Virus record (IMG/VR): IMGVR_UViG_3300047392_000215
Location: 1-53,890 of that record
Length of the DNA stretch: 53,890 bases
DNA from: a virus
Reading direction: 5' to 3' (one strand)
The notes under the pieces are model-generated. The model made no database searches. It saw only the letters and a program-made list of their open reading frames with translations, and was not told the origin of the DNA. Shown here in pieces: positions 1 to 46,273 of this stretch. The translations under genes were made by a program, and so were the position numbers. Position 1 is the stretch's first letter, and the number at the start of each line of letters is the position of its first letter.

Positions 1-262
1 GTCTATTTAACGCAATATCATAAATGAAATATAAATCATTTTCTAATTCGTCATATGAATCTAATTTTTCAGATATTAATTGAATGTCTAAATCCCATGT
101 GTTATTAATGTCGTACATAATTCCACCATAAAGAACAATTTTATATTTCTTATAGATTTTAGTTTTTCTTAATTCAATTAAGAATCTTCTAATTTTTATC
201 CAAGATGGTCGACTCCAAATTGTTTCAGTTGAAAACTCTCCTATTTGATAATAAAAATCCAT
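1..262 (-). CDS. Partial CDS, possible nucleotidyltransferase-fold protein (runs off left edge)
   Basis: An open frame starts with ATG at 262 and stays open through 87 codons to the window edge, so the C-terminus is missing. The start overlaps the preceding stop as TAATG, the usual coupling in this genome. The visible part begins MDFYYQIGEF. Around residues 44-60 it has a Gly-Gly followed by an Asp-x-Asp (LYGGIMYD, then WDLDIQL), the spacing seen in the active site of nucleotidyltransferase (Pol beta-like) folds, where GG or GS precedes DxD. That family call is inference from one motif. It is the next gene after the Hint-domain tail fibre in the same transcript. Confidence 0.6.
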   Translation of the reverse strand, partial: MDFYYQIGEFSTETIWSRPSWIKIRRFLIELRKTKIYKKYKIVLYGGIMYDINNTWDLDIQLISEKLDSYDELENDLYFIYDIALNR

Positions 263-2994
263 TATTCAATTGCTTGAGGTTTATTATGTGTTAATATTCC
301 ATTTGCAAAAAACATGTCATTTTCTTCAACATCAACTTTGTAAACAATATAGTGTCCTTTGGTTTCTACAATACTATTAACTTCTAATTCTACTCCATTT
401 TCTGTAAGTAACATATCTCCAGCTTTAACATCTATTGCATATCCTATTCTCCATAAACCATTAGATTTATAAAGATGCAAGTGGTCTTTTGTTGTAAATA
501 ATTTGCCATCGTTAAATGAAAGAACCACATTTACATTAAATGTTTGAATTCCTACAACTGTAACGTCTTCATCATAAATATCTAATTTATCAGATTTCCA
601 ATCAAATAGATCCTTTGTATTTTCCAACATTGGTAATCCAACAATTGTTTTACTATATAAAGCATCTCCAACTGAGACATCCTGAACATTTTTAAATGTT
701 CCATCATTCATCGATATTTTAGTTCCAAAAAGAACACAACCACCTCCTCCAGATCCTGGAGACGACGTGAAGCACGAAACTGCAGAATTTAATGCTCCAG
801 TAGAACTATTGTTACATTTTCTAGAAATTGATCCATCACTGAAATAATATGCTGAATTTGCATAGTTAATCTCTCCTGATCCAGCACTAGAACCGCCAAC
901 AAACAGATTTGCAATTGATGAAAAAGACTGTGATGTTGCAATAGAACTTTGATAATATCCATAAATGTTATAAGTACCATTACATGCTCCTACTGCGGTT
1001 GTTGCATATCCTAGTGGAGAATATGCATCTATGATATTAACGTAGTCTAACGTAAATATTGCTCCTAAAAAATCATTTCCATCCCAATATCTTCTAGATC
1101 CAGAATCTCTATACCAACCTGCAGAAGCATATGATGTTCCGCTGGAGTTATTTGAGATAAATGTAGAATTTGATAATGAAGATCCATCAATATAATAAGT
1201 TGATTTTGATAATCCACTGAATGCTCCATTTATTCCAGCATTAATTGCTGCAGAATTATAAACTAATTGAGTACTTAAATATGTTACACATGCTACTCTA
1301 CTTGTAAATTTAGCAGTCGCATTATCCCAATATCTTGCTACTCCTCCAGATGCATACCATCCAGAAGAAGCATATGCAGAACTCCCAGAGACATATAATT
1401 TATTATCATTAGTCGTCCATGTACTAGATTCAGTCCATGTTCCAGTTGCAAAATTACAACCAAATCCAATTGATGATGTAACACATGCATATCCAGATGA
1501 AGTTCCACCAAAAGCTAAACTAATTGTATTAATAGTAATAGGAGACCCAGCAGAACTCCATGTAAATCCATCTTCTCCTAAGAAACATAAATAAAATAAT
1601 CCATCTCCTTTACCAGTTGACGTTTCAAGTTGATTTGATGTTGTAGATCCAGTGTATATTAAAGTATCTGGTTCGCCATTATCAATATATGAAGATCTAA
1701 CTGCATCTTGACCTGATGTTCCATTAGAATAAGAATAGTATCCAGCTGCTGCAGGCTGCCAAGCTTTAAATGAAACCTGTGCAGATCCTAAAACTTCTCT
1801 ATTTGTTGTTGTTATGTTAATATTACCAACTCCTACAGGTGGCGGGGTAAGAAGAGAATCAGCATACACAGGATAATCAACATTTAAGTCAAATCCACAT
1901 AAATTTGGTAAAGTATAAGATACTGCTCCTTTTTGCCATGTTTTACCATTACAAAGATACCATCCTTTAAATTTGCCATTTGATAAACCAGCACCAAATG
2001 TAAATTGAATTACTGGAACCGTACTTGCGTATCCTGCAACTGCAGCTAAATCAAGCAGAATTCCTGTTTTATTTAAACTAAAATAAGTATCTGTAAATTC
2101 TTTATCAACTGCAATAATTGAACCGATTGGAAAAGTTGGTAGAACAACATTAATGTCCTTCCACATTACAACTCCAAGAGTACCACTCATATCATAATCG
2201 GTTGCTGCAATTTTATCAACGCCTGCTGTTCCGTAATAATTTGATTTAATTTGAACAGTGTTATTAAATGTTCCACCCGCATTAAAATTACTAACGCTTG
2301 ATTTTGGTTCAAATTTAAGCGGTGAAAGTTCTAACATTTCAGTTGAACTACTTTTAGCTGTTAAGAAAGAAAACTTTCTACCAGTTCCTGGTGAAAGTCT
2401 AAATTTCCAAATCGAATGAATTTCATTTTGAAATCCAGAATCTAAAACAGTGTTTATTATATTTCCATTATTGTCATTACCTGTGTGTAAATTGAAGAAA
2501 ACAGCCTTTCTTGTAGGAAGATTATTATTTCCTGGATCAATGTTTGACGTAACAAACATTAAATTATTTTGTAAAGGATCTTTAGTGTTATATCTTTTAA
2601 CAGTAGTTCCACTAGTGTCGTCTAAAACGTATTCAGTATCGGTATTTGCATATCCAATTCTAGTATTAGAAGGATCGGTCTTAGTTTCAATATATTTTAT
2701 TGTGATATTGTTTTGACCTGCTTTAGTGTTAGCTGCCCAATCTCCATAACCTTTAGGTCCAAATACACCTTGCACTCCTTGAAATCCTCTAAAACCAAAA
2801 TTACCTTGAGGTCCAGTAATTCCTTCAAATCCTAATTTACCTTCAAATCCTTGAGGTCCATAAGGCCCACCATTCGACAATTTAATTTGATCGAAATTCC
2901 AATTAAGTTTTTCAACTTTTTTGCTTGACCACCATAGAGATGGAGATGCTGGATCTAGATCGGATTTGTAAAGTTCTTTAATATCGATAGACAT
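262..2994 (-). CDS. Tail fibre with collagen-like stem, collar-like domain, Cys/Trp repeats and C-terminal Hint domain
   Basis: This 910-aa protein is a probable receptor-binding fibre. Residues 43-84 carry 14 consecutive Gly-x-y triplets (GPQ, GPK, GFE and similar), a collagen-like trimeric stem. Residues about 287-372 resemble a phage tail-collar domain (FPIGSIIA, GWYLCNGKTW, YTLPNLCG). Residues about 500-740 contain three diverged repeats around GSS, then ASSGWY or ASAGWY, then RYWD. After GSGGGG, Cys753 starts a Hint domain with block A (CVLFGTKISM), a TxxH block B (TKDH, near 836) and a terminal His-Asn (903-904), followed only by KPQAIE. Hint domains catalyse N-S acyl shift and Asn-cyclisation cleavage; the residue after Asn is Lys, not Cys/Ser/Thr, so ordinary splicing is unlikely. 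It follows the 1595-aa gene with a 3-nt gap. Confidence 0.85.
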   Translation of the reverse strand: MSIDIKELYKSDLDPASPSLWWSSKKVEKLNWNFDQIKLSNGGPYGPQGFEGKLGFEGITGPQGNFGFRGFQGVQGVFGPKGYGDWAANTKAGQNNITIKYIETKTDPSNTRIGYANTDTEYVLDDTSGTTVKRYNTKDPLQNNLMFVTSNIDPGNNNLPTRKAVFFNLHTGNDNNGNIINTVLDSGFQNEIHSIWKFRLSPGTGRKFSFLTAKSSSTEMLELSPLKFEPKSSVSNFNAGGTFNNTVQIKSNYYGTAGVDKIAATDYDMSGTLGVVMWKDINVVLPTFPIGSIIAVDKEFTDTYFSLNKTGILLDLAAVAGYASTVPVIQFTFGAGLSNGKFKGWYLCNGKTWQKGAVSYTLPNLCGFDLNVDYPVYADSLLTPPPVGVGNINITTTNREVLGSAQVSFKAWQPAAAGYYSYSNGTSGQDAVRSSYIDNGEPDTLIYTGSTTSNQLETSTGKGDGLFYLCFLGEDGFTWSSAGSPITINTISLAFGGTSSGYACVTSSIGFGCNFATGTWTESSTWTTNDNKLYVSGSSAYASSGWYASGGVARYWDNATAKFTSRVACVTYLSTQLVYNSAAINAGINGAFSGLSKSTYYIDGSSLSNSTFISNNSSGTSYASAGWYRDSGSRRYWDGNDFLGAIFTLDYVNIIDAYSPLGYATTAVGACNGTYNIYGYYQSSIATSQSFSSIANLFVGGSSAGSGEINYANSAYYFSDGSISRKCNNSSTGALNSAVSCFTSSPGSGGGGCVLFGTKISMNDGTFKNVQDVSVGDALYSKTIVGLPMLENTKDLFDWKSDKLDIYDEDVTVVGIQTFNVNVVLSFNDGKLFTTKDHLHLYKSNGLWRIGYAIDVKAGDMLLTENGVELEVNSIVETKGHYIVYKVDVEENDMFFANGILTHNKPQAIE
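736..1500 (-). repeat. Three diverged protein repeats in the fibre head
   Basis: Within the 910-aa fibre, three segments (residues about 533-563, 600-642 and 697-735) share the order GSS, a Tyr-Ala-Ser or Tyr-Ala-Asn segment with an aromatic Trp/Tyr, then a Gly-rich turn and RYWD or a degenerate form. Each is preceded by a Cys-containing stretch of roughly 30-50 residues. The third copy is the most diverged. This looks like tandem duplication of a receptor-binding module; the coordinates are approximate. Confidence 0.5.
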
Positions 2995-16974: not shown

Positions 16975-17259
16975 TTATCTTATTTTCTTGTAATTTTTGC
17001 TCACTGTAAAGTTTTTATAAATCTTTAAATGAGTTGCCGAATCAATATACATGACAACAACATCCTGTAATAAGATGATAAAATCGCTAAGATATTGATT
17101 TCTTAATAAGGCATTTGAAACTGCTTTTGTCAAAACAGAATTTCTAAAATCATGCCCTAAGTTTTTCCTATTATCGACCGATTGGTTACGAAAATCGTAA
17201 AGACTTTCATAACCAGCCGAGAATAATCCATCATATAAATTTATTTGCTCTTGAGCCAT
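16975..17259 (-). CDS. Small virion-block protein of unknown function (94 aa)
   Basis: This 94-aa, largely helical protein (MAQEQINLYDGLFSAGYESL) with a basic C-terminus (SKNYKKIR) was not recognised. Its first base overlaps the last base of the gp6-like stop, and the next gene starts 3 nt after its own stop, so it is embedded between two baseplate wedge genes and is probably translated with them. A small wedge component or assembly factor is inferred from that position only. Confidence 0.6.
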   Translation of the reverse strand: MAQEQINLYDGLFSAGYESLYDFRNQSVDNRKNLGHDFRNSVLTKAVSNALLRNQYLSDFIILLQDVVVMYIDSATHLKIYKNFTVSKNYKKIR

Positions 17260-19079
17260 TAGATTTGTTTTCTATTTTGCGTTTGTATTGATGAATATAT
17301 TGTCATCGGTACAGGTGGTTCGTCAAAGTAAACAGAAAGTGCTGCCATTTCTCCAGCTCTAGCGTCATCAGGTACTTTAATACCGTCTCGATCTATCCAA
17401 CCTCCTCTAAACATTGCAACCTCTTCTTTTCCTAATATAATATCTCCAAAAGAATCTAATCCAATTACAGATTCAGGTAAAGCAGCATTTGGTTCAAAAT
17501 TAACTTGAGTTTCAGTTACAGTTCTTTTAAAGAATACAAACTTTTGTTTTCCATTTCCAATTGTTTCCAATGTTGGAGTAGAAGGAGTTACTGTAACCGT
17601 TTTTGAAATATAATAACCATTCTTTCTAGCAGTTTCTTCAGCTTCAGATATAAATCTAATATTTACAGAGTCAACACCGTCAACTCCTTCGATAATTGCA
17701 ATCAAGTCAGATTTTGGTAAACGATCTCTTCTTGTAATATTCATCAAATATTCTGAAACTTTTGCGCGAATGTTTGTATAAATATTAGTCTTTGAAAAAC
17801 CTTCAAAGTATCTAACTTTAATATCCATTCTATAATATTTAGCAATTGGATCTACAATTTGAACTTCAGTTGTAACCATCTGCTGGCCTGAATTTTCTAA
17901 CACTCCAAGTATTCCATTCTTCTCATCTTGAGAAAAGAAGAACTCATTTAGATCCAAACTAAAATAGTCTTTATTCTTTGTTAATTTCTTTTTAGTATCA
18001 GGCAACATGAATAAGTAGATAATATTGTCATCATCGATATATCCATCGTCTGTTGTATTGTAAGCATCGAGGTACGAGAATAAACCATATCTTGATAGGA
18101 AATATTCATAATTTTCAGGAGTTGCTAAAACAAAAGATTTTGAAGCTAAAGGAGCAATCAACTTAGTTGTTTTAATAGACTCTGGATCTGCTCCCATTTT
18201 AGGAGATTGAGTACAGTAAACTTCTAATATTTTATTTAAATCATAAGTTTGTCCAGTAGAATCAGATCCTTCGGTTACAAATTTAAAAGTAAGGTCTTTA
18301 GAATCATTTAAATTTCCAGTAAAACCTTTATGCATGATATATTCAACCATGATTGTAGTTCCAAGATCTGGAATCATTCCAAAACTGCCATTACCAAAAT
18401 AAAGGTCTAGACCTCCATTAATTCCAGTTTTAACTAAATATCCTTTAGTTGTCGGAAGCATGTCATATAATGAATCATATTTAGTCCATAACTTTCCATT
18501 AACTGAAACTCTAATATTAAAATGATCCGTGTATTCTTTAACGTTTAAGTTAAATGATTGTAATGCTGCTCCGGTTCCAGTCACAGTTTGAGCTTCATGA
18601 GCTCCTTGTATAATTGGAATTGTAATATAGTTAAAATTAGATTTTTCAATTCTAAATAAGTCATTATTTGTTCTTAAAATATATTCTAATCCGTTTGAAT
18701 TTGATTTAATAACTGCATTTGCTGGAATTGTAATAGCATCTCCAGCAATTTCATTAATTGATGATGTGTTTAATCTAATTTTGATTTCTCCAATTGCAGA
18801 AGAACCTCTAAATGCATCGTGACCTGTTAATCTAGCAAGACCATAAATAGATTCAGGTTGTTGAGCTGTTAAAATATTCTGTTCAACTGTTGCATCTTCA
18901 ATATAGAAGAATATTAGTTCAGATATTTCAGTTAGTACTGTAATAATCTGAAAGAATGGAGAAGCTGGTGTAAAAACCTCACCTAATCTTGTATATAGCC
19001 TAGCCATATAGGTTTTCGTATCAGTTAATAACTGATTCGCCTGTATTCTAGTTTTTTGTAAAAATGTTAGGTTTGCCAT
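17259..19079 (-). CDS. gp6: Baseplate wedge protein, gp6/gpJ-like (606 aa)
   Basis: This protein matches the baseplate J/gp6 family in layout: an N-terminal helical arm (residues 1-70, with SPFFQIITVLTEISELIFFY), a central beta-rich region with ITIPANAVIKS, and a C-terminal domain with KYYRMDIKVRYFEGF and SDLIAIIEGVDGVDSVNIRF, the hallmark of J-like proteins. At 606 aa it is close to T4 gp6 (660 aa). In contractile tails gp6 dimers form the ring that holds the wedges together and triggers sheath contraction. It follows the gp25-like gene by 11 nt, the conserved gp25-gp6 order. Confidence 0.88.
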   Translation of the reverse strand: MANLTFLQKTRIQANQLLTDTKTYMARLYTRLGEVFTPASPFFQIITVLTEISELIFFYIEDATVEQNILTAQQPESIYGLARLTGHDAFRGSSAIGEIKIRLNTSSINEIAGDAITIPANAVIKSNSNGLEYILRTNNDLFRIEKSNFNYITIPIIQGAHEAQTVTGTGAALQSFNLNVKEYTDHFNIRVSVNGKLWTKYDSLYDMLPTTKGYLVKTGINGGLDLYFGNGSFGMIPDLGTTIMVEYIMHKGFTGNLNDSKDLTFKFVTEGSDSTGQTYDLNKILEVYCTQSPKMGADPESIKTTKLIAPLASKSFVLATPENYEYFLSRYGLFSYLDAYNTTDDGYIDDDNIIYLFMLPDTKKKLTKNKDYFSLDLNEFFFSQDEKNGILGVLENSGQQMVTTEVQIVDPIAKYYRMDIKVRYFEGFSKTNIYTNIRAKVSEYLMNITRRDRLPKSDLIAIIEGVDGVDSVNIRFISEAEETARKNGYYISKTVTVTPSTPTLETIGNGKQKFVFFKRTVTETQVNFEPNAALPESVIGLDSFGDIILGKEEVAMFRGGWIDRDGIKVPDDARAGEMAALSVYFDEPPVPMTIYSSIQTQNRKQI

Positions 19080-19090
19080 GTTAATTTTAT

Positions 19091-19450
19091 TTATATTTCA
19101 ACTTGCACTGATTCTTTACCTCCGTCAATATTAATATTAATAAAGATTGCATCTCGGTCTGGAGATGACGTATCAAAATCAACATCAACGGTTACATTCA
19201 TTTCAGCAGCAAGAGGAACATATCTTGCAAGTTGAGATTCTATTTCATTTTTTATTTGAGAATCATTGTAATTCAGGCTATATACCAAGTCTTCTAAATT
19301 GCAACCGAGTGCTGGTGAACCGACAACTTCTCCTTTTCGTGTGAAAAGAATCACGTCAATTTGAGCCAACAAAATAGCAATTCTACTATCAGATTGCAGT
19401 TTTGTCGGATCATAATTAGGATCCCCATTTGTCTTAATATACAATTCCAT
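19091..19450 (-). CDS. gp25: Baseplate wedge protein gp25 (GPW/gp25 family)
   Basis: At 119 aa this protein has the size of T4 gp25 (132 aa). The family core is visible: an initial strand and helix, then LFTRKGEVVGSPALGCNLED (residues about 35-54), followed by a helix with IESQLARYVPLA and two C-terminal strands. gp25 links sheath and wedge and nucleates sheath assembly. It lies directly before the gp6-like gene, the arrangement conserved from T4 to type VI secretion systems. The ATG directly follows ATACATACTAA with no Shine-Dalgarno. Confidence 0.9.
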   Translation of the reverse strand: MELYIKTNGDPNYDPTKLQSDSRIAILLAQIDVILFTRKGEVVGSPALGCNLEDLVYSLNYNDSQIKNEIESQLARYVPLAAEMNVTVDVDFDTSSPDRDAIFININIDGGKESVQVEI

Positions 19451-19469
19451 TTAGTATGTATCGTTATTT

Positions 19470-20303
19470 TTATGAGTGCATCATCCAATCAACACCTTCA
19501 TCTCCTTTGATTTCTTCAAGAACTCTTTCAAGTTCAGATTCTCCAAGAGATTGAATATTATCGGCGTTTATTGATATATTACCAGGAAGATTAAATCCAA
19601 AGATTCCCATTTTATTTCCTAGTGCTATTTTAATCTTAGCTGCACAGTATCTAAAGAAAATTTCATCGGCAAATAAAGCACATTGTGGAACAGTTTCATA
19701 AACATTAAGAATAACATCTTTTAATGGTGCCAATCCTGTAAAACGAATCTCATGAGTTAATTGACTATAATGATAACTAATCGGATTATCTAGAATTTGT
19801 CTAGTTAAATCAAAATAACTTTCATTAATTACATAGTACTGTAAGTTTTCAGCACCTGATACTGTACCGGTTCCACCATATAAACCACCATACATCATTC
19901 TCTCTAATGCAAAGTCTCCAGTTGTAAAGGTCATTGATGTACCAGATCCAAATCTAGATCCTGTTTGATAAACACCAAACACAGAGAATGTTTCACCACC
20001 ACCTGTTGTTGGATTCTCCTTAGGCAAAGTTAAACTTCTAGTTCTTTTAAAGTATTCAGTTTGAAAAACTTCTTTAGGAATTCCAATAAAACTTTCTCGT
20101 ACTGAATATTCATAGTTCTTAAAAAACCATTTCTTAGCACGTTGTATAATATTTTGAACCTCTTTTTTAGGTAAGTTCATTGGAATCATACAAGATCCTG
20201 TAACGTCATCCGCAAGTTCATTTACGAAATTGTTATAACATTCAGCGTCCCATGATGGTGGAGTTGTTATACCACCTATTCCACTTTGTATAATATCACT
20301 CAT
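19470..20303 (-). CDS. Virion protein, possible neck/connector or tail-completion component (277 aa)
   Basis: This 277-aa protein has an N-terminal Cys-containing segment, a helix with KKEVQNIIQRAKKWFFKNYE (about residues 46-65), a Gly/Ser/Thr-rich central loop, and a C-terminal helical domain with FFRYCAAKIKIALGNKMGIF and an acidic end (EEIKGDEGVDWMMHS). It starts two bases after the amidoligase-like stop and precedes gp25, so it is co-transcribed with wedge genes. A neck or tail-completion role is a guess from its general appearance. No enzymatic motif is present. Confidence 0.6.
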   Translation of the reverse strand: MSDIIQSGIGGITTPPSWDAECYNNFVNELADDVTGSCMIPMNLPKKEVQNIIQRAKKWFFKNYEYSVRESFIGIPKEVFQTEYFKRTRSLTLPKENPTTGGGETFSVFGVYQTGSRFGSGTSMTFTTGDFALERMMYGGLYGGTGTVSGAENLQYYVINESYFDLTRQILDNPISYHYSQLTHEIRFTGLAPLKDVILNVYETVPQCALFADEIFFRYCAAKIKIALGNKMGIFGFNLPGNISINADNIQSLGESELERVLEEIKGDEGVDWMMHS

Positions 20304-20305
20304 TT

Positions 20306-21604
20306 TTATCCAGCTATTTTTGTTGAATTTACTATTTCAGTATCTTTAAATACCGCAGATTTTGTATACTTTCCTTCTCTAAAGATACCATCATTCATTT
20401 GTCCACTAAATACTCCATCAATTCCATACACATAACAATTTGTTGCAACACAACTTTTATTTACGTAGGATGAACCAACCTTAGATCCGTTGATTTGAGT
20501 ACCTTGATAGAAATTACATGAACGAATATCAGAAGCTTTAACGTCACATTGGAATATATCACAATGTGTAAGTTCTCCCATTATACTACATTTGATAAAT
20601 TCATAGTTCATAATAGAAAAACAATACGGTAATTCACCGCCTTCAACCTGAACTCTTCCAGTATCTGAGTCATAGTTAATCTTACCCTTAGTTAATTGAC
20701 CATTCGTGAATAAGTTCATCACCTGATCTTTAATTTGCGGCCAGTAAATATCAATAATTCTTTCGTCTTTTTCAAGATCAACTGTCAATTCAACATTACT
20801 CCATCCCTTTGCAATATTTCTCCAATCAACTCGAGCATCGATAATTCTCTTATTTTTGGTTAATATTCTTTTAAGTTCTAATCTATTGTTACTTGTGAAA
20901 CCTTCATCAGTTGATGTTTTCCAAAGCTGCATTAAGAATGAATCTAATAGAGTTAAGATTTTTGTCTGTTTCTTGTGCCAATCTTCTCCTCCTAAATATC
21001 TAAATTCTAAATAATTCTTTTGTAACTTTTCAAAGTTTACTCCGTAATATTTAGATTGAGGGAAAATGAAGTTATTTTGGCTAATATGATTTCCATCATA
21101 TACATAAGTTTCTGTTCTTGGAAGAACAAACTTAATTGATTTTGCATAAGCAGAATCTTTTCTATTTGGAAATGCTTTCCAAACCTGCTCTTCATTAAAA
21201 TCTAAAATGAATTTAAGTGGACTCATTCTAGAAATTTGGTATCTGTTGCCAGTTAATTTAGGGTCAAAACTTAAGTTTAAGTGGATTGAAGAACGGTTTG
21301 TAGTATAACCATTTTTATTAATCCAATCACAAACTTTAATAATAATCATTCTACCCTCAGAATATGGCAAAGCGCCGGTAACTAATTCCATTAGTCCGGC
21401 GCCACCACTCATATCTGGTTCGATTTTAAACTCCTTTTGATTTGGAGTAAAATCACTATGATGTTTTTTCTCGATTCGAATCTTTTTACCTAGAACTTCA
21501 GCTAATTGTTTTGCTGTCTCTTCTAGACTTACATTTGCATAGAATTCGAATTCTATTCCTACGAGACCTTTTTGAAGAATCTCTGAATCACTTAAGTTAA
21601 TCAT
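20306..21604 (-). CDS. Amidoligase-like protein with C-terminal beta-helix-like region (432 aa)
   Basis: The first ~230 residues carry the pattern of the amidoligase family (COOH-NH2 ligase, glutamine-synthetase-like fold): GLVGIEFEF at 13-21, EFKIEPDMSGG then LMELVTG at 58-77, and NRSSIHLNLSF at 103-113. These correspond to the metal/ATP-binding Glu pairs, the Asp, and the G/S-x-H-x-N motif. Such enzymes join carboxylates to amines. Residues beyond about 325 are short Cys/Ser/Asn-rich strands (CSIMGELTHCDIFQC, CNFYQGTQINGSKVG) resembling a right-handed beta-helix, as in tail spikes. It lies between an S1-domain gene and virion genes with its own late-like promoter. Family call by motif; substrate unknown. 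Confidence 0.68.
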   Translation of the reverse strand: MINLSDSEILQKGLVGIEFEFYANVSLEETAKQLAEVLGKKIRIEKKHHSDFTPNQKEFKIEPDMSGGAGLMELVTGALPYSEGRMIIIKVCDWINKNGYTTNRSSIHLNLSFDPKLTGNRYQISRMSPLKFILDFNEEQVWKAFPNRKDSAYAKSIKFVLPRTETYVYDGNHISQNNFIFPQSKYYGVNFEKLQKNYLEFRYLGGEDWHKKQTKILTLLDSFLMQLWKTSTDEGFTSNNRLELKRILTKNKRIIDARVDWRNIAKGWSNVELTVDLEKDERIIDIYWPQIKDQVMNLFTNGQLTKGKINYDSDTGRVQVEGGELPYCFSIMNYEFIKCSIMGELTHCDIFQCDVKASDIRSCNFYQGTQINGSKVGSSYVNKSCVATNCYVYGIDGVFSGQMNDGIFREGKYTKSAVFKDTEIVNSTKIAG

Positions 21605-21650: not shown

Positions 21651-22856
21651 TTAAACTAGCTTTAAGAATACCTTTCTGGTTTCTTCTTCGATTCTATTTA
21701 CTACAACTGTAATTGGATCTCCTTTTTTCAAATGAGTTGTATCAATTCCACTTAATTCGCTAGAATGTAAAAGTCCAGTAATACCATCTTCGATTTCAAT
21801 AAACAATCCATAATCTTTAATAGATCTAATTGTTCCTTGTACCTCAACCGGTACTTTGTATCTTGATGCAGCACCATTCCATGGATTAACCATTGAATCA
21901 GTTTTCTGAGTTAATGTAATCTTCGTTGTTGATATAATATCTTTAACAAAGAATTTAACTGGAGTACCAGGGTGTAACTCTCCTTTTGCATATAATTCAG
22001 CAGTGTCAGGAGCTAAATCATTAATATGAATCATACCAGTTAAGCAACCATTAAATTCAACGAATACTCCGTATTTTGTTGAACCTGTTACATAACCATC
22101 TTGTTCATTTTCAATGTTAGTTCTAAGTGTCTCAATTTCTTGAGGAATCATTGCTTGTAAATACTTACGGTGAGAAACTACGATTGTACCTTTATCATGT
22201 GAGAATGATACTGGGACAACATACATTTCAGTGCCAATGATTGATTCAAAGTTTGCAAGTTTATTAATTCCTGCTAATGAACCAGGCATGAAACATTCAA
22301 CTCCTTGTACCGTTACCATGTAACCTCCACCCGGAATCATTTGTTCAATTTTACCAGCGTATGCTGTATTTTCAGTTTTAGCAGATGCTAATAACTCATT
22401 AAATACTGCTTGTCTAGTTCCTTCAGTAACTGATCCTACACAAAATCCTTTTGTTGCAGCGTCTCCAACAATTTTAACAGTGAATTCAGCATCTTTAACA
22501 ATAAGTTTCTTAAATGCATTTGATTCTCGGTCTAAATCAATGTAAACAAATTCTCTGTGTCCAACATCGATCGATGCCCAACGAGAATCTACTGACCAGA
22601 TGGTACCTTTTAAATGGTCGCCTACTGAAATTTTAGATACAAAATTCTTAAATGAATTGTTGTACATTTCATACTGGATTTGTGCGTCTTTTGCTTGTGA
22701 AAATACTTTAACGCCTTTGGGAACTTTTACGTGAGGATTTCCCTTCCTCATTCTGCTAGGGCAATCTGCTGTGTGAGCGTCCCAATCGAAATCTGCTAAA
22801 CCAACATTTTTATTGGCTAGAACTTCTGTTTTTTGTTTTGTTAATTCTTGTAACAT
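21651..22856 (-). CDS. Ribosomal protein S1-like protein with four S1 domains (401 aa)
   Basis: Four S1 (OB-fold RNA-binding) domains can be read at residues about 78-143, 164-230, 249-317 and 335-401. The last two have clear core motifs (GYVTGSTKYGVFVEFNGCLT; GTIRSIKDYGLFIEI then GLLHSSELS). The second contains GGGYMVTVQGVECFMPGS, the signature of domain 2 of bacterial S1, and the N-terminus has ADFDWDAHTAD, resembling the start of Bacteroidota S1 proteins (FNWDAFAND-like). Cellular S1 usually has six domains and about 550-600 aa, so this is a shortened form. S1 binds the 30S platform and recruits mRNA. The gene sits inside the virion block with its own late-like promoter, 28 nt before the ATG. 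Confidence 0.87.
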   Translation of the reverse strand: MLQELTKQKTEVLANKNVGLADFDWDAHTADCPSRMRKGNPHVKVPKGVKVFSQAKDAQIQYEMYNNSFKNFVSKISVGDHLKGTIWSVDSRWASIDVGHREFVYIDLDRESNAFKKLIVKDAEFTVKIVGDAATKGFCVGSVTEGTRQAVFNELLASAKTENTAYAGKIEQMIPGGGYMVTVQGVECFMPGSLAGINKLANFESIIGTEMYVVPVSFSHDKGTIVVSHRKYLQAMIPQEIETLRTNIENEQDGYVTGSTKYGVFVEFNGCLTGMIHINDLAPDTAELYAKGELHPGTPVKFFVKDIISTTKITLTQKTDSMVNPWNGAASRYKVPVEVQGTIRSIKDYGLFIEIEDGITGLLHSSELSGIDTTHLKKGDPITVVVNRIEEETRKVFLKLV

Positions 22857-22883: not shown

Positions 22884-22896
22884 TTAGTATATATTA
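22884..22896 (-). promoter_or_regulatory. Late-promoter-like element (TAATATATACTAA)
   Basis: The minus strand reads TTTAATATATACTAAGTAG, 28 nt before the ATG of the S1-like gene. It is a near-perfect copy of the late-like consensus. Confidence 0.58.
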
Positions 22897-22901
22897 AATT
22901 T

Positions 22902-24683
22902 TTAAAAGGCAGTCGGGACAAATCCAATCATAGGAATTGTTGCGGTACCGACAGTTAATTGACCCACATAAATAAATTTAAGTTCCATTAGATGCTTAGC
23001 GCAACATGTTGCAACCGCTGATGCAACTGCTTTAGTCACAGGATGAGTTAATGGTTCAAGTTGTGCCAACTTCCCAGTATTCCAAGCTCTTCTAAGATTT
23101 TTAGCTAATGATTTTTGACTTCCATAATACAATGGAGTATAAATACCAGGAGAAGGAATATTACACGGTGGAACCGGTGGTGAGTTTTTAAATGGTTGAA
23201 CCGCACATGACATCCAATATTGAATAATAGTTTTAGCCATAGTATCATACGGATCCTCTTCAGAATCTGGATCAGCAGCTTTCTTTTCAGATACTGCAAG
23301 CTCATCAATCCATTGCCTTTTTAAAGCATTATACTTTTCTCGATCAAGTGCATAGAGTTTTCTCTTTAACTCGATTCTTTCATTTTCATTAGTATTATTT
23401 GCTTTAGAATGTTTATCTTCGGTTATATCATCAATTCCTGTAACATAACAATATTTACAAATAAAGTAATCGGTTAACCAAGTTGGCCAAACATCCTTAT
23501 CATCATTATATTCTAATTGAATAAGTTTTTTATTCAATGGATTTGTTAAATCGGTTTTAAGATTTGAATTACGTTTAATATAAGCAGTGTCAGATTCTAA
23601 TTTTATTTTATCTTCAACTGTTTTTAAATAATCACCTACCTTAATTTTGCTATCATACAATTTATTTCCTATCATTGCTTGATATTCAATAAATGCAGTA
23701 TTTGCAGTCCCAGGTTTTGGAACTAAAACTTTAGCATCATACAAATCTGTATATTTTTTAGTGATTTGATTTGTTATAGTTTTTATGTCAACTGCTCCTA
23801 ATATACTAAGACATCGATCTCCTACTTTTTTACCATAAGCAGATTCATAAGCTAACGAAAGTCTAGTAAGAAATCTAACAAACTTTATATCGCCATCATT
23901 TTGATACAAAACTCTTTTTACAAGTAGCTCAAATTTCTGGTCTTCTGTTAATGTTAGTTTGGTTTTTTGAGTGCCATTGACAACACTAGCCTCTTTAGTA
24001 CCGTCCTTTGGTATATTTACTTCAACAGTTTGGCTTAATGAATGTGTAATATCTGGAAATGCTGAATCAACGACATTTGTAAGAGTATATTTTAGTTTTC
24101 CGGGAGTATCGAATGGAACATATAAATTATAGAATCCAAATTCATCTGAAAGAATTTCAATAGGTTCACCATTATTTAGAGTGTATGTGAATCTATATGG
24201 AGCAACTCCGCCCTTTCCAGTAAAAGTTAATATTGGTTGATCTGCCTCAATCGCAGTTCCAAACACGTCAGCACCTGTTAATTTTGGTTCTACCGGTTCA
24301 GGTATTGGAAAGAATTCATAAAACTTAGTATCAGGTAATGCATTACCTTTTGATATAATCCATTTTCTAAATTCGGCTTCCGCATTATATTTTTTTGGAA
24401 CTGGTAGAGCTTCTAATAAATCAGCAAATTTAGGGTCTTTAATCTTATCTTCAAGAGATGGAGTAGTTGATTTAAATAAATCATTAAATGCTTTTTTAAA
24501 TCCTTGTTCTAAAACTGCTTTTTGACCGGATTGATGAAGATTTCCAAATGGAGTTTGTGAAGTTTTGACTGCATTAAAATATTCATTAGCCATAAACGTA
24601 CCGAAGTCATCGGGTCCTTTAGAAGACCGACTTGCTAGTTTTGATGATACGTTATTTATAAATATTGGCCACTGTGCAGGCAT
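22902..24683 (-). CDS. Virion/baseplate protein with inserted Ig-like domain (593 aa)
   Basis: This 593-aa protein has helical N- and C-terminal regions split by a PKD/Ig-like domain at residues about 131-231 (LTFTGKGGVAPYRFTYTLNN), a sequence type common in Bacteroidota surface proteins. The N-terminal part (FMANEYFNAVKTSQTPFGN) and the last ~110 residues (IQYWMSCAVQPF, PGIYTPLYYGS, HLMELKFIYVGQLTVG) may form one structural unit interrupted by the middle. A small CKYC motif lies near residue 410. It follows the gp5-type spike gene and was not matched to a T4 protein. A tail role is inferred from location. Confidence 0.65.
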   Translation of the reverse strand: MPAQWPIFINNVSSKLASRSSKGPDDFGTFMANEYFNAVKTSQTPFGNLHQSGQKAVLEQGFKKAFNDLFKSTTPSLEDKIKDPKFADLLEALPVPKKYNAEAEFRKWIISKGNALPDTKFYEFFPIPEPVEPKLTGADVFGTAIEADQPILTFTGKGGVAPYRFTYTLNNGEPIEILSDEFGFYNLYVPFDTPGKLKYTLTNVVDSAFPDITHSLSQTVEVNIPKDGTKEASVVNGTQKTKLTLTEDQKFELLVKRVLYQNDGDIKFVRFLTRLSLAYESAYGKKVGDRCLSILGAVDIKTITNQITKKYTDLYDAKVLVPKPGTANTAFIEYQAMIGNKLYDSKIKVGDYLKTVEDKIKLESDTAYIKRNSNLKTDLTNPLNKKLIQLEYNDDKDVWPTWLTDYFICKYCYVTGIDDITEDKHSKANNTNENERIELKRKLYALDREKYNALKRQWIDELAVSEKKAADPDSEEDPYDTMAKTIIQYWMSCAVQPFKNSPPVPPCNIPSPGIYTPLYYGSQKSLAKNLRRAWNTGKLAQLEPLTHPVTKAVASAVATCCAKHLMELKFIYVGQLTVGTATIPMIGFVPTAF

Positions 24684-24719: not shown

Positions 24720-25448
24720 TTATTTACCTTTTTGCTGGTAATCTTTGTGCTTTCCTTTCAACTGACTAATTGTCGCTGGTGTTGGAGGAGATGGAGGTCC
24801 TGAAGGACCTGTTGGAGTTGGGTGAATATGTTTTTGATAATCATCTAATAGAACATTCAACCATTTTTCTAAAGAAACTCCACGAACCGCAGGTTCTTTC
24901 TCATCTTCTGATGCTTCTCCAGTATTTGATAGGAATATGTTACCTGAATCTAAAAAGATTTTAGTATCAGTGCTTATTTTAATATTATTCTTTTCATCGA
25001 TTTGTATTAGGGGTCTCTCCTTGGCACCCTTACCTCGTGTGATAATTATACCATCTTTAGGAGAATGATAGATCCTGATGTTACGGATTTCATCGTATAC
25101 TAATGAGATAGTTTGTTGCGCTTCATCTTCTGATAGAGCATCTAAAACTTCAGATTTTAGGGCTTTACGTTGATTAACCTGATAAAAATATTCAGGATGA
25201 TATAAGTTACCATTATCAAAACGAATTGAAACAATATCTCCAACATTAGGAATTGCATGAGCTCCTACAGCATTTCTGTTTCCACATGCTGCCCAAGGAA
25301 TATCTTCGGTTGGAACGTTATCAAATTTACCAAAGACCATGACTTTACATCTTCCATTTTTCAATGGGTCTTTATTTTCAACAACTTTACCAAGCCAATG
25401 AGTGTCCCTAATATTATCACTACCACCTATTTCATCAACTGTAGCCAT
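24720..25448 (-). CDS. Baseplate central spike protein with gp5/gpV-type OB fold (242 aa)
   Basis: Residues about 15-95 form the OB-fold typical of gp5/gpV/VgrG spikes (WLGKVVENKDPLKNGRCKVM, then VPTEDIPWAACG and NVGDIVSIRFDNGN). Residues about 115-165 are short strands (RIYHSPKDGIIITRG) leading into what may be a brief beta-helix. The C-terminus has HIHPTPTGPSGPPSPP, a His/Pro-rich tail as in spike-tip connectors. The lysozyme domain of T4 gp5 is absent, so any peptidoglycan hydrolase must be elsewhere. The spike docks on the hub trimer and pierces the outer membrane. It follows the 433-aa tail protein by 2 nt. Confidence 0.82.
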   Translation of the reverse strand: MATVDEIGGSDNIRDTHWLGKVVENKDPLKNGRCKVMVFGKFDNVPTEDIPWAACGNRNAVGAHAIPNVGDIVSIRFDNGNLYHPEYFYQVNQRKALKSEVLDALSEDEAQQTISLVYDEIRNIRIYHSPKDGIIITRGKGAKERPLIQIDEKNNIKISTDTKIFLDSGNIFLSNTGEASEDEKEPAVRGVSLEKWLNVLLDDYQKHIHPTPTGPSGPPSPPTPATISQLKGKHKDYQQKGK

Positions 25449-36189: not shown

Positions 36190-37113
36190 CTAAATTAAGA
36201 TTGTTTCATATTTTCTAAGATAATTTATTAGAGCTTTTTCTTTAGCTTTAGCTTCTAAGTCAATGTCAATTGAAAGCCCATATGAATCGATATGTTCGTA
36301 AATGTAATCGGCATGTGCACGATTTACAACTGAAGCATCTTCGTGAATTTTTTTACATGAACTATAATGAACAAGCTGTCTGATACCTTCTGGCCAAGTT
36401 GAAGCTGCTAGGTATAAAGCATCTTTTTGAGACATAGGATCTTCATAACACCAATGGTGATGATAGTCAAATACGATTGGAATTCCTGTGTGAGCTGATA
36501 AACCATAAACTAAATCACTTGTAGAATATTGAGCTTTTTTATCGTCATTTTCTACAGTCATGCGTTCTTTGACAGAAAGGTCTAGAGTATCGAATGCTTT
36601 TATAAAACGATTGAGAGAATCTTCTTTACTGACTGCTGTTGTATTAACATGAATATTGATAGCAGCATCTGGAGTTCTTGGCAAACCAATAAGATCCATG
36701 ATTTCTCCGTGCTGATTAAGTTCTTTGATAGAACGAACGACAACATCTGGATTTTGACTAGCAATTACACAAAAATGACCAGGATGGAATGTCAATCTTT
36801 GACCTGCATCCATTGCAATTTTACCAGCACCTTTAAGAAGGTTAGAGATTTTAGTATAATCTGGTAGGTCTTTGATTTCATACTCAGACATCCATGGAAT
36901 CATATCAGAAGACATCCTGTAAAGCTTGATACCTTGTTGATTATTCCATTTGATAATTTCGATGAGGTCTCGGACATTTTGTAAAGCTAGTTCGCTGGCA
37001 TATTGAATTCCCTTTTGCTCAAAAGTACGTTTAATCATACCACGACCGATTGTAATACCTTTCTGTTCTTGAAGGGTCATATTGATACAACAATAACCTA
37101 GTCTATTCTTCAT
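36190..37113 (-). CDS. uvsE: UV damage endonuclease UvdE/UvsE (308 aa)
   Basis: UvdE nicks DNA 5' of UV photoproducts and abasic sites, starting an alternative excision-repair route. The sequence opens with MKNRLGYCCINMTL, the family start, and keeps the TIM-barrel metal ligands in recognisable motifs: RMSSDMIPWM, LTFHPGHFCVIA, INIHVNTT, MTVENDD and IVFDYHHHWCY. At 308 aa it matches the usual 290-320 aa. The start at 37113 is preferred over an upstream ATG at 37194 because it gives the family N-terminus and overlaps a small upstream ORF by only 11 nt. Confidence 0.93.
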   Translation of the reverse strand: MKNRLGYCCINMTLQEQKGITIGRGMIKRTFEQKGIQYASELALQNVRDLIEIIKWNNQQGIKLYRMSSDMIPWMSEYEIKDLPDYTKISNLLKGAGKIAMDAGQRLTFHPGHFCVIASQNPDVVVRSIKELNQHGEIMDLIGLPRTPDAAINIHVNTTAVSKEDSLNRFIKAFDTLDLSVKERMTVENDDKKAQYSTSDLVYGLSAHTGIPIVFDYHHHWCYEDPMSQKDALYLAASTWPEGIRQLVHYSSCKKIHEDASVVNRAHADYIYEHIDSYGLSIDIDLEAKAKEKALINYLRKYETILI

Positions 37114-37246
37114 AATCTCTAATAATATGTTTACGCCACCAATTTTTAAGTTTAGAATTGTCTGGCAATTTATCAATTCTAGGTTCGAATACAAAAGGAC
37201 ATGATACTAAGACAAGTCCTATAATTATACAAATGATTAGTCCCAT
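37103..37246 (-). CDS. Small membrane protein (47 aa)
   Basis: A 47-codon frame starts at 37246, inside the 3' end of the 134-aa gene (10-nt overlap, ATGGGACTAA), and ends with TAG at 37103, overlapping the UvdE start by 11 nt. The product has one hydrophobic helix (MGLIICIIIGLVLVSC, residues 1-16) and a basic, Trp-rich tail (KNWWRKHIIRDYEE). LVSC resembles a lipobox but no positive residue precedes it, so a membrane anchor is more likely than a lipoprotein signal. The tight overlaps on both sides are the main evidence that it is real. Confidence 0.6.
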   Translation of the reverse strand: MGLIICIIIGLVLVSCPFVFEPRIDKLPDNSKLKNWWRKHIIRDYEE

Positions 37247-41371: not shown

Positions 41372-41632
41372 TTAATCACCAGCCATTATGACTAATGCTT
41401 TTAGTTTCATAAGAGTATCGCATTTTTCATACTCTTCCATTTTTTCAAAATATTCAATAAGTAGTTCGATGAATTTTGAGCGTTGCTTCATACCATGAGG
41501 TATTTCAATTAGGTCTTTTCCTTCCTGAAACACAATAAATCGGTTTACTGTTTTCGTGAAGTTACGGGTCAAAGTATAATAACTTGACCTCATAATGTTG
41601 TCCTTTTCTCTATTTGGTATGTTTTCGCTCAT
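41372..41632 (-). CDS. EEYEKC-family small protein, member 3 (86 aa)
   Basis: Its C-terminal part (LLIEYFEKMEEYEKCDTLMK) shares the pattern [aromatic]F-x-x-[LM]-EEYEKC-x-x-L-x-K with the proteins at 41894 and 43141, and the underlying DNA shares a 17-nt identical stretch (41421-41437). The rest (NRFIVFQEGKDLIEIPHGM) is unlike the others. The helix with conserved EEYEKC superficially resembles a UVR-like helical-pair motif. Function unknown; it follows the bS21 gene. Confidence 0.62.
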   Translation of the reverse strand: MSENIPNREKDNIMRSSYYTLTRNFTKTVNRFIVFQEGKDLIEIPHGMKQRSKFIELLIEYFEKMEEYEKCDTLMKLKALVIMAGD

Positions 41633-41705: not shown

Positions 41706-41903
41706 TTACGATTCTTTTTCTTTCTGAGTTTTTAAAGATTGAATATAAGTTGCCTTACGAACTTCATCTCTTCTTTCAACTGAAGGTTTAACAAATGTTT
41801 GCTTACCTCTTAGTTTTTGAATTTGTTTTGTTTTAACAACTTTACTCTTGTATTTTTTAAGAGCCTGTTCGATGTTTCCGTTTTTAACGTCTATTATAAG
41901 CAT
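41706..41903 (-). CDS. rpsU: Ribosomal protein bS21 (65 aa)
   Basis: Sequence matches the Bacteroidota bS21 type: [20 protein letters not shown], then KTKQIQKLRGKQTFVKPSVE and RRDEVRKATYIQSL. This keeps the family's basic helices and the C-terminal Tyr in ATYIQ. bS21 binds the 30S platform near the anti-Shine-Dalgarno end of 16S rRNA; in Flavobacterium, bS21 with bS18 and bS6 has been reported to cover the anti-SD. A phage copy could replace or compete with the host protein and change initiation. The start overlaps the stop of the previous small ORF by 10 nt (ATGCTTATAA), so it is probably coupled. Confidence 0.9.
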   Translation of the reverse strand: MLIIDVKNGNIEQALKKYKSKVVKTKQIQKLRGKQTFVKPSVERRDEVRKATYIQSLKTQKEKES

Positions 41904-42148
41904 ATTTCCTGTAGTATTTTTTTTAATTCAACACATTTTTCATACTCTTCTAAAGATTCAAACCAGCTAATTATAAAATTTAATGCTTCTATCTTCTCCT
42001 CACGTGTTGAATTTCCTTTTAGTGCACCTTGTTTTTTATTAATGATTGCATGATATACTAAATCCATCATTTTGTCCTTTGGTAGATTTTGTACTGCATT
42101 AAAAAAATTCAGGGCATCATCATCGATTTCTTGATTATGATTTTCCAT
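41894..42148 (-). CDS. EEYEKC-family small protein, member 2 (84 aa)
   Basis: The C-terminal part ([20 protein letters not shown]) carries the shared family motif, and the DNA has the same 17-nt stretch (41934-41950). The N-terminus is acidic ([16 protein letters not shown]). The start at 42148 (overlapping the DnaJ stop by 14 nt) is preferred; an upstream ATG at 42175 overlaps by 41 nt. It sits between the DnaJ-like and bS21 genes and overlaps the latter by 10 nt, suggesting one coupled cistron set. Function unknown. Confidence 0.62.
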
Positions 42149-42953
42149 TAGCCAATTCTTTAATTTTATTAACAAGATCGAGTTGTTCGTTATCTAAACA
42201 ATTAAAAATAGCATGCACTTTAATAAGTAAACTACCATGATCCTGTGTTTTATATATTGGCATTCCTTTGCTTGGAATTCTTAAAATTCTTTCAGAAGCC
42301 GTATTAGGTGGTATATTAACTTTGTATTTTCCAAATGGTGTTTCTACAGTCAGTTCAGTTCCTAAAATTAAATCATAGAATGGAACATAAGAATCCATCC
42401 AAATATCATGACCTTGTAAGATTAGATTGTCATCTGGTAGAATATTGATATTAATAATTAAGTCTCCACGAGGGGCAGTTGTGTTAAATCGATTGTAATC
42501 TCCGCGACCATAAACTTTTAATATCATGCCAGTATGTAGACCTGGTGCAAAGTCAACTCGAACTTTATCAAAACCTAAATCAAATACTCGACTAGTACCA
42601 TGATACGCATCATTAATATTAAATGTCGCATTGATTCTAACATCCTTTCCAGGAGCAGATTTTTCATGATTAAAATGTCTATCAAATTCAGTAGACCAGT
42701 TTCCGCCAAATTGACTGAATAGGTCATTGATATTAAAATTAGCACTTGAGAATTGGCGACTTAAATCATATTGTTGTCGCTTAGAAGGGTCTGAAAGAGT
42801 TTCATAGGCTTCTTGAACTGCCTGGAATTTCTCTTTAGATAATATGTCTGAATTTCGGTCAGGATGATATTGCTTCGCTAGATTGCGATATGCATTCTTA
42901 ATCTCGTCCTGCGTCGCCGTTTCCTGAACGCTTAATGTCTGATAATAACTCAT
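42135..42953 (-). CDS. DnaJ/CbpA-like co-chaperone (272 aa)
   Basis: Residues 1-66 are a J-domain ([20 protein letters not shown], then KQYHPDRN with the HPD at 30-32), which activates Hsp70. There is no Cys-rich zinc domain. The C-terminal part ([39 protein letters not shown] and [13 protein letters not shown]) matches the CbpA/DnaJ C-terminal substrate-binding beta domains, so this is a type II J-protein. At 272 aa it is slightly short for CbpA (about 300 aa). The start overlaps a 65-aa ORF by 56 nt. A role in phage protein folding or host Hsp70 recruitment is inferred. Confidence 0.9.
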
Positions 42954-43126: not shown

Positions 43127-43155
43127 AAAAAAGGAAGCGGTTAGCTTCCTTTTTC
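43127..43155 (-). terminator. Rho-independent terminator
   Basis: AAGGAAGC, loop TAACC, GCTTCCTT, then TTTTATTTAG on the minus strand. The stem includes the stop codon of the 105-aa protein. It ends that unit just before the 65-aa/dnaJ unit. Confidence 0.85.
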
Positions 43156-43458
43156 TAGTTCGACTAGGTACTTTTTTAATAGTCCACATTTTTCATACTC
43201 TTCTAATTCGGCAAACCAGTTAAGCATAAACGTTAGTGTGTTCTTAAGCTCATCTTGGTTTAAGTTAATAAGCTTCATTTGGTCAACGTCGATACCATTA
43301 GCCTCGATGTTTTTAAAGTTAGCTCGAACCAATTGATCGACTACGTCATGGTACATTCCTTTAACTTCGTTTGTTTGCATAATTTGAGTTATTTCATCTT
43401 GTTCGTTTTCTTCGTTCTCTTCAAAGAAATCTTCGTTTTCAAAATCGTCGTTATACAT
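43141..43458 (-). CDS. EEYEKC-family small protein, member 1 (105 aa)
   Basis: The C-terminal part (FMLNWFAELEEYEKCGLLKK) defines the family; the DNA has the shared 17-nt stretch (43187-43203). The N-terminal ~27 residues are extremely acidic (DDFENEDFFEENEENEQDE). A middle helix (VVDQLVRANFKNIEANGIDV) precedes the motif. The 21-nt promoter-like element ends 16 nt before the ATG, and a terminator overlaps the stop, so it is a single-gene unit. Function unknown. Confidence 0.65.
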   Translation of the reverse strand: MYNDDFENEDFFEENEENEQDEITQIMQTNEVKGMYHDVVDQLVRANFKNIEANGIDVDQMKLINLNQDELKNTLTFMLNWFAELEEYEKCGLLKKYLVELEKGS

Positions 43459-45328: not shown

Positions 45329-46273
45329 TTATTTTTGAACTTTCCAGTTAGGATTTTGTTTCGTGTTCTGCTTAGAATCCGCTTCTTTATACTGTTTTAA
45401 TAATTCAATAGTACTTGGTTCCATTGGAGCTTCATAATAGTCTTCAAAGATTCTTTGATAAACAATCGTAAGCACACCAAATAGAGTACCAGGCTCAGAA
45501 TTCATTTCAAACACATAAATATTTTCATCATTATCTTCTGCTAAATCAATTGCATAGAAGTCTAAATCTTGGTGAGCATCAGAGAAATATCTAATTGCTT
45601 TAATATGAGAGTCCTTGATGTCTTTAACATCTTTAAGAATATATGAAAAGTTAGTTTCCTTTTCTGGATCCTTCTTAGCGATATCTGCCGTTTCATCATC
45701 CATTGGAACTCTTTGGCACCATTGGATAATTTCATCTCTCCACATAAAATATCTATGCTCTTCAGCAATATCTATTTTTTCTGAGAAAGAAGAGAACTTA
45801 CTTAAATCTGCGTTTTCAAATTCTTTAGCATTATTAAATACAGTAATACCTAATCCACTATGTTCGTTGTCAGGTTTTGCAACAATAGGAAACTTAAGTT
45901 TACCAACATCATTTTTGTCGGTTGCAGTAGGAACAATATATCCACTATCAGCATGTTCCTTATAGAATTTTGCCTTTGAAACAATAGTTTCTCTAGCGTC
46001 AATTGTATTATAAACTTGGTATGGTTTAATCATACCGTTTTCTAAAAACTTTTCTAAAGTTTTTCTATCATAATTCAGGACGGGCATATCATCAAATTTT
46101 TCAATTGATTCCATGTCCATTGTTATAACATTCCAGTACTCTTTTGATTTGTATGCTGGACCCGTAATAAAAGAATCGTCAAGAACTTTTCTTCGAGTGA
46201 TACACACTTTCTTGAAATCATCCTTGACGATTGCTTCGTTTATAAATTGTTCAAATGTTAATAGAGATTTCAT
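45329..46273 (-). CDS. ATP-grasp enzyme with capsid-targeting-like N-terminus (314 aa)
   Basis: The core has ATP-grasp features: KFPIVAKPDNEHSGLGITVF near residues 127-146 (nucleotide-binding strand and Gly-rich loop), the DLDFYAIDLAED strand (Asp243) and YVFEMNSEPGT (Glu256, Asn258), which would hold Mg-ATP. ATP-grasp enzymes ligate carboxylates to amines or thiols; the substrate is unknown. The first 14 residues (MKSLLTFEQFINEA) match the F-x-Q-F-x-x-E-A pattern of two other proteins here and the T4 internal-protein targeting sequence, suggesting packaging in the head and injection. It lies after a 2OG-oxygenase gene, so a modification cascade is also possible. Low-complexity tail rich in Lys/Gln/Asn. 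Confidence 0.72.
   Translation of the reverse strand: MKSLLTFEQFINEAIVKDDFKKVCITRRKVLDDSFITGPAYKSKEYWNVITMDMESIEKFDDMPVLNYDRKTLEKFLENGMIKPYQVYNTIDARETIVSKAKFYKEHADSGYIVPTATDKNDVGKLKFPIVAKPDNEHSGLGITVFNNAKEFENADLSKFSSFSEKIDIAEEHRYFMWRDEIIQWCQRVPMDDETADIAKKDPEKETNFSYILKDVKDIKDSHIKAIRYFSDAHQDLDFYAIDLAEDNDENIYVFEMNSEPGTLFGVLTIVYQRIFEDYYEAPMEPSTIELLKQYKEADSKQNTKQNPNWKVQK

Follow-up and report, generated by a model that had tools for sequence, protein, structure and literature searches.

A conserved phage S1 homologue among baseplate genes and its proposed action, with phage bS21, on the host ribosome

Introduction

Proteins resembling ribosomal protein S1 (rpS1, bS1) have been described in huge phages, including the Lak phages, where the authors found true rpS1 hard to confirm (Al-Shayeb et al. 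2020, PMC7162821). Because S1 domains are ambiguous, bS1 was excluded from the main survey of viral ribosomal proteins (PMC6375957). Phage S1 and phage bS21 have thus each been published already (PMC7162821, PMC6375957, PMC9723584), as has a cyanophage bS1 (PMC13157829). The bS21 of Bacteroidetes phages is expressed with the late structural genes (PMC9723584). In Bacteroidia, bS21 is a platform protein that neighbours bS1 and holds the 3' tail of 16S rRNA; the bS1 of Flavobacterium johnsoniae binds loosely, is present in sub-stoichiometric amounts on purified ribosomes and, when supplied, increases initiation on an mRNA without a Shine–Dalgarno (SD) sequence (PMC9976891).

The window analysed here, the whole 53,890-nucleotide stretch of an uncultivated virus (IMG/VR record IMGVR_UViG_3300047392_000215), encodes an S1 homologue within its virion gene block and, 19 kb away, a bS21. 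We describe the protein, its place in related phages, its probable origin and the features that bear on its function.

Results

The window encodes a four-domain S1 homologue

21651-22856 (-): phage S1 gene, 401 residues, four S1/OB domains (open reading frame, match to bS1, AlphaFold2/Foldseek)

The open reading frame is intact and real, and S1 domains are recognised in its product by Pfam (6.5e-19). A phmmer search against the PDB aligns residues 68-399 with residues 12-345 of Escherichia coli bS1, which are domains 1-4 (7.7e-38), and in both phmmer and Foldseek the order of the domains is colinear with bS1 from domain 1 onward. The AlphaFold2 model, built from 42 phage relatives, shows four beta-barrels (OB) after a helix at 58-68, with a mean pLDDT of 78.6 and a pTM of 0.48, the latter as expected for a beads-on-a-string protein. 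Its top Foldseek match is bS1 in a '30S mRNA delivery complex' (4.5e-26). The four S1 domains of the original prediction are therefore confirmed, as is its claim that about two C-terminal domains are missing: the protein ends with domain 4 and has no counterpart of domains 5-6 of the six-domain Gram-negative bS1. The bS1 of Bacteroidota has this six-domain form, at about 590 residues. The S1 of the phage Lak-B5 is also without domain 4, stopping after domain 3.

It had been recognised from the start that the best matches might instead be other OB-fold proteins, such as the S1 domains of RNase E or PNPase. Such an origin is ruled out, since the top NCBIfam families are all '30S ribosomal protein S1' (1e-44), PNPase follows at 4e-12, and the bS1 models lie well above those of PNPase and RNase R. 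The window protein falls below the curated bS1 equivalog cut-offs (144 bits vs 577 for TIGR00717, 128 vs 368 for PRK06676) and is ~27% identical to host-type bacterial S1. The product is thus an S1 homologue that matches bS1, not RNase E or PNPase, in sequence and fold. The dN/dS of 0.07 between the gene and its 95% relative indicates purifying selection.

S1 occupies a fixed slot in the virion block

262-2994 (-): tail-fibre-like gene, part of the long minus-strand virion block
17259-19079 (-): baseplate J/wedge gene (phrog_219, 1e-33), used as an independent seed
19091-20303 (-): gp25-like baseplate wedge subunit gene (19091-19450) and head-tail adaptor (19470-20303) (phrog_43, phrog_211)
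20306-21604 (-): amidoligase_2-like gene (PF12224, 2.6e-7), which follows S1 in the virion block of nearly all relatives
22902-24683 (-): 593-residue virion-block protein directly upstream of S1, syntenic in most window-clade relatives
24720-25448 (-): gpV-like baseplate spike OB gene (PF04717, 4.8e-6; phrog_37871, 1.1e-12), two genes upstream of S1

The placing of S1 amid baseplate genes, read originally from the sequence alone, is borne out by Pfam and PHROG matches of its neighbours to a gpV OB protein, gp25, the baseplate wedge and the head-tail adaptor. Homologues were found by tblastn in uncultured huge phages of 462-735 kb and in all Lak phages, and a profile scan of IMG/VR gave at least 584 stretches that encode S1 relatives. 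The order around S1 is nearly invariant: gpV, (593-residue or other gene), S1, (optional ~265-residue gene), amidoligase, head-tail adaptor, gp25, baseplate J. Loci were also gathered with a baseplate J alignment led by the protein of a 462-kb phage, to avoid ascertainment by S1. Among 60 loci found in this way, S1 lies just upstream of the amidoligase in 49, the sequence ended at the remaining 11, and none lacks S1 where the slot is covered. In the two locus sets S1 fills the slot in 49/49 and 74/74 covered loci, counts that do not represent independent events, as many IMG/VR contigs are near-duplicates and some are in both sets. The identity of S1 among slot-carrying relatives falls to ~35% (LR756500), with the gene order still kept.

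The strict position among baseplate genes, seen in the window clade and the LR756500 clade, together with the frequency of OB folds in phage baseplates, would suit a virion component, that is, an OB protein in or packaged with the baseplate, or an S1 that is injected early. We consider this improbable, and the packaging suggested in the original prediction has become less likely. More than 100 kb separates S1 from the baseplate wedge gene in the Lak and 634-735 kb phages, and the Lak S1 is near DnaB and a Thg1-like gene. Furthermore, five cultivated relatives (Tenacibaculum phages pT24 and PTm1, Flavobacterium phage MaF61, PAU, and Chryseobacterium phage MA9V-1) build homologous baseplate wedges and have no S1 domain, and the nucleic-acid-binding features of the phage S1s are all kept (see below).

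Some further observations concern these neighbours. Downstream of S1 the constant neighbour is the amidoligase_2-like gene, whose product may act on a virion protein or on S1 itself. The optional gene between the two encodes ~262-282 residues in many relatives (L118, L134, L138 and others). Elsewhere in the window, the non-structural part includes a gene for a UvdE-like UV endonuclease (36190-37194 (-), 2.3e-59), and weak intein-like signals (intein C-terminal splicing region, Hom_end_hint) occur at 51526-52662 (-).

The phage S1s form one old clade

In a maximum-likelihood tree (quick search) all phage S1s, including those of the 462-735 kb huge phages and the Lak phages, fall in one clade on a long stem, apart from the bacterial S1s (SH-aLRT 100). 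A clade of phage and Bacteroidota S1s was neither recovered nor rejected (AU p 0.075), the Bacteroidota references being two full S1s and PDB 9zcd; a scan of genome contigs with DNA patterns had yielded mainly S1s from proteobacteria and acidobacteria. Any capture of S1 is ancient on this tree, as the phage proteins form a single long-stemmed clade; a recent capture from Bacteroidota finds no support in it.

The N-terminus is more informative. When 102 bacterial S1s, just two of which are from Bacteroidota, are searched with a profile of 29 phage S1 N-termini, these two score best (1.4e-5 and 2.1e-4; the next is at 0.26), in agreement with the resemblance proposed originally. The motif F[DN]W is common to the phage N-termini and the Bacteroidota S1s; it is FNW in the S1 of PDB 9zcd, an entry that also contains the F. 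johnsoniae bS21 sequence. From this one short region, the N-terminal extension, an old Bacteroidota origin of the phage S1 is likely. As to the proposed capture from the host, the N-terminal extension points to Bacteroidota, any such event would be ancient, and the phylogeny, which had been suggested as a check, neither recovers nor rejects a grouping with Bacteroidota.

Phage collections do hold contaminant bacterial S1 genes, and these would favour reading the gene as a metagenomic artefact, or as a passenger that is not under selection for any role. We rejected as contaminants Acinetobacter MD-2021a, and IspH-S1 fusions and a Bacteroidota S1 in fecal clones; bacterial records among 'phage' entries were used only as bacterial references. 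The record labelled 'Acinetobacter phage MD-2021a' (L012, CAKLQH020000011.1) is bacterial chromosome around this locus, with rpsA beside cmk and himD. For the gene in the window the artefact is refuted for practical purposes by the recurrence of the same slot in >100 loci, the dN/dS and the phage-only clade.

Residues for uS2 docking and RNA binding are conserved

22623-22856 (-): N-terminal extension (residues 1-78), which carries an FDWDA motif and a helix ahead of domain 1; all 42 relatives keep F23 and W25
22428-22622 (-): OB domain 1, residues ~79-143; R101 aligned with E. coli K43 (uS2 pocket)
22164-22367 (-): OB domain 2, residues ~164-231; Y179 and F189 aligned with E. coli F120 and F130
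21906-22109 (-): OB domain 3, residues ~250-317, with YGVF...H nucleic-acid-binding face; G263, F265 and H277 invariant or near-invariant in 42 relatives
21654-21854 (-): OB domain 4, residues ~335-401, the protein end (Pfam S1 339-398); Y349, F352 and H364 invariant in 42 relatives

In E. coli bS1, F5 and F9 stack on uS2, K43 reaches into a pocket of uS2, F120 and F130 touch the mRNA, and domain 1 is clamped to 16S rRNA by bS21 (PMC10123108). The position of K43 is R or K in 43 of 45 phage S1s, and those of F120 and F130 are both aromatic in 45/45. Across the 42 relatives, the YG.F...H faces of domains 3 and 4 vary little or not at all. The N-terminal alignment is ambiguous for the F5/F9 helix, the window protein having its predicted helix at 58-68.

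The S1 of some bacteria has four domains and is not known to associate stably with ribosomes, which counts against action on the ribosome. In E. coli, domains 1-3 are the minimal unit for 30S binding and mRNA docking, and S1 without domains 5-6, which are dispensable, supports growth (PMC3858243). By analogy, the shortening of the phage S1 need not cripple it, and the four-domain form is plausibly complete for initiation.

The conserved RNA faces of domains 3-4 would also be expected of an RNA-binding factor acting off the ribosome. Such a factor might coat A/U-rich phage transcripts (its own leader among them), shield them or control their use, or it might assist a phage nuclease or polymerase, as host S1 does for T4 RegB and Q-beta replicase. 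The wide divergence of phage from host S1 and the absence of domain 4 in Lak-B5 would fit, and phages are known to make use of host S1 off the ribosome (work cited in PMC13157829). We nevertheless regard such a factor as unlikely, because features of the N-terminus and domain 1 that are needed only for 30S docking are conserved as well, and bS21 co-occurs in many of the genomes.

A promoter-like element precedes S1 and the leaders lack SD sequences

22887-22894 (-): promoter-like element ATATATAC, 38 nt before the S1 ATG

Of 66 distinct S1 leaders, 58 contain the motif ATATATA[AC], where dinucleotide shuffles would give 3.8 ± 1.7; the median distance from the motif to the ATG is 37 nt. Such a gap and element are missing from most virion genes, and the other bearers (the 630-residue, 1595-residue and amidoligase genes) head gene groups. 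A second class of element, TTTATATTTACATA, occurs at four places in the 38.8-45 kb part of the window, at three of which a small gene starts ~35 nt further on. A further candidate, AC..TTTTAA as an S1-specific leader box, was rejected: it is found in 74% of S1 leaders, yet also in 34-37% of those of two other promoter-bearing genes. From the class of its element, which is common to virion genes, S1 is probably made late in infection and in quantity. The strong late-like promoter proposed at the outset corresponds to a conserved promoter-like element, whose class makes late timing probable.

SD cores are absent upstream of the genes of the window (0/53), as had been supposed for the phage mRNAs, and the leaders contain >50% A.

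The strong promoter-like element, the shortened form and the retained docking residue could also be those of a decoy or inhibitor, in which a four-domain S1 occupies uS2 and shuts down host translation or frees host S1 for the phage. This seems distinctly doubtful to us, given the growth of E. coli with S1 lacking domains 5-6 (PMC3858243) and the need of the virion proteins for the same ribosomes at that time.

A second ribosomal protein, bS21

41706-41903 (-): phage bS21, 65 residues, Bacteroidia type (PF01165; TIGR00030 over cut-off)

The original prediction had overlooked this gene. It overlaps the end of an upstream small open reading frame (41894-42175) and adjoins genes for DnaJ and PhoH; the neighbours scanned, a set that covers some of the small open reading frames in an incomplete genome, are DnaJ, PhoH, RNase HII, ATP-grasp and a 2OG oxygenase. 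Its best PDB match is F. johnsoniae bS21 (7jil) with 55 bits vs <=25 for Firmicutes-type bS21, and it has a tyrosine at the position of F. johnsoniae Y54, a residue whose conservation is reported to be unique to the Bacteroidia and which redirects the 16S 3' tail (PMC9976891). This Bacteroidia-type bS21 supports a Bacteroidota host, and the uncultivated phages that carry S1 probably infect Bacteroidota.

We found bS21 in 27 of 42 S1-carrying records tested, most of them fragments, and in none of the five S1-less cultivated relatives tested. Neither was it detected in some S1 phages (LR756500, Lak-B5 and the L179 group). Since uS2 is present in 0/13 phage records and L7/L12 exceeds its cut-off in LR756501 only, the recurrent pair is bS1 and bS21. 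In the S1 sub-group L173, L176, L177, L179, L182, L184 and L188, with contigs of up to 236 kb, bS21 was not detected, whereas most closer relatives of the window have it.

Near bS21, small proteins at 41372-41632, 41894-42175 and 43141-43458 (-) share a C-terminal motif, approximately (L/M)EEYEKC..L, and are perhaps a duplicated phage family. The ATP-grasp gene (R2K_3-like, 45329-46273 (-)) has a weak PHROG match named ribosomal protein S6 glutaminyl transferase; we did not accept it as a RimK-like modifier of bS6, as the evidence is weak and other searches point to a D-Ala ligase-like ATP-grasp.

Discussion

The reading that we prefer, with confidence a little above even, is that S1 is a core gene of this phage lineage encoding a phage-specialised bS1, which would be made with the virion proteins and load on the host 30S subunit with phage bS21 to favour SD-less late mRNAs. 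S1 would have a promoter of its own, belonging to the class found ahead of virion genes, and would be made alongside the baseplate proteins late in infection. Its N-terminal extension and domain 1 would dock on uS2, on the side where mRNA leaves the host 30S, with domains 2-4 presenting the A/U-rich, SD-less leaders of phage mRNAs. Host bS1 could be exchanged or supplemented by the phage protein because it is loosely bound. The bS21, where present, would reshape the mRNA-docking platform with phage S1 for phage leaders, so that in phages with both, two adjacent and exchangeable parts of the docking site would be replaced. We infer 30S binding from the conserved residues and fold. A preference for phage mRNA is part of the same inference; the mRNAs of Bacteroidota hosts are also SD-less, and the leaders alone therefore do not explain discrimination.

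More tentatively, and at clearly less than even confidence, the two proteins may amount to a specialised ribosome: the phage would supply bS1, hard-wired in the virion transcription unit, and bS21, and the docking site of Bacteroidota ribosomes would be remodelled for late phage mRNAs in hosts that are SD-independent.

In the open-access literature we found no report of a fixed S1 slot in the baseplate block or of S1/bS21 pairing in this lineage. The conserved place, promoter element, docking residue and partner gene make a role in translation concrete and testable. If it is true, an abundant phage lineage would refit the ribosome as one of its core late functions, and not through a stray acquired gene, and the phage proteins would offer a natural means of studying how mRNAs are selected by Bacteroidota ribosomes in the absence of SD pairing.

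Compared with the six-domain bS1 of E. coli and Bacteroidota, the window S1 is alike in its colinear domains 1-4, docking residue and RNA-face residues; it differs in stopping after domain 4, in its ~27% identity and in lying under the equivalog cut-offs. The jumbo cyanophage PhiMa05 also encodes a bS1 with other ribosomal proteins; its six ribosomal proteins were traced to a Vampirovibrio-like host, and no link of these to a virion block of this type was seen (PMC13157829). The bS21 phages of Chen et al. (2022, PMC9723584) share with the present lineage a 30S platform protein placed with structural genes and proposed to act late, and Bacteroidetes hosts, which are probable for the present lineage. 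In those phages bS21 is near TerL/MCP and S1 is unmentioned, whereas here bS1 is in the baseplate block and the neighbours scanned around bS21 include DnaJ and PhoH. The rpS1 of the huge and Lak phages (PMC7162821) is homologous and in one clade with the window S1. The window lineage is a different one, represented by fragments no longer than 256 kb (a contig of the LR756500 type reaches 429 kb), and for it we can now add the domain order, docking residue, N-terminal extension, place in the baseplate block, promoter element and pairing with bS21.
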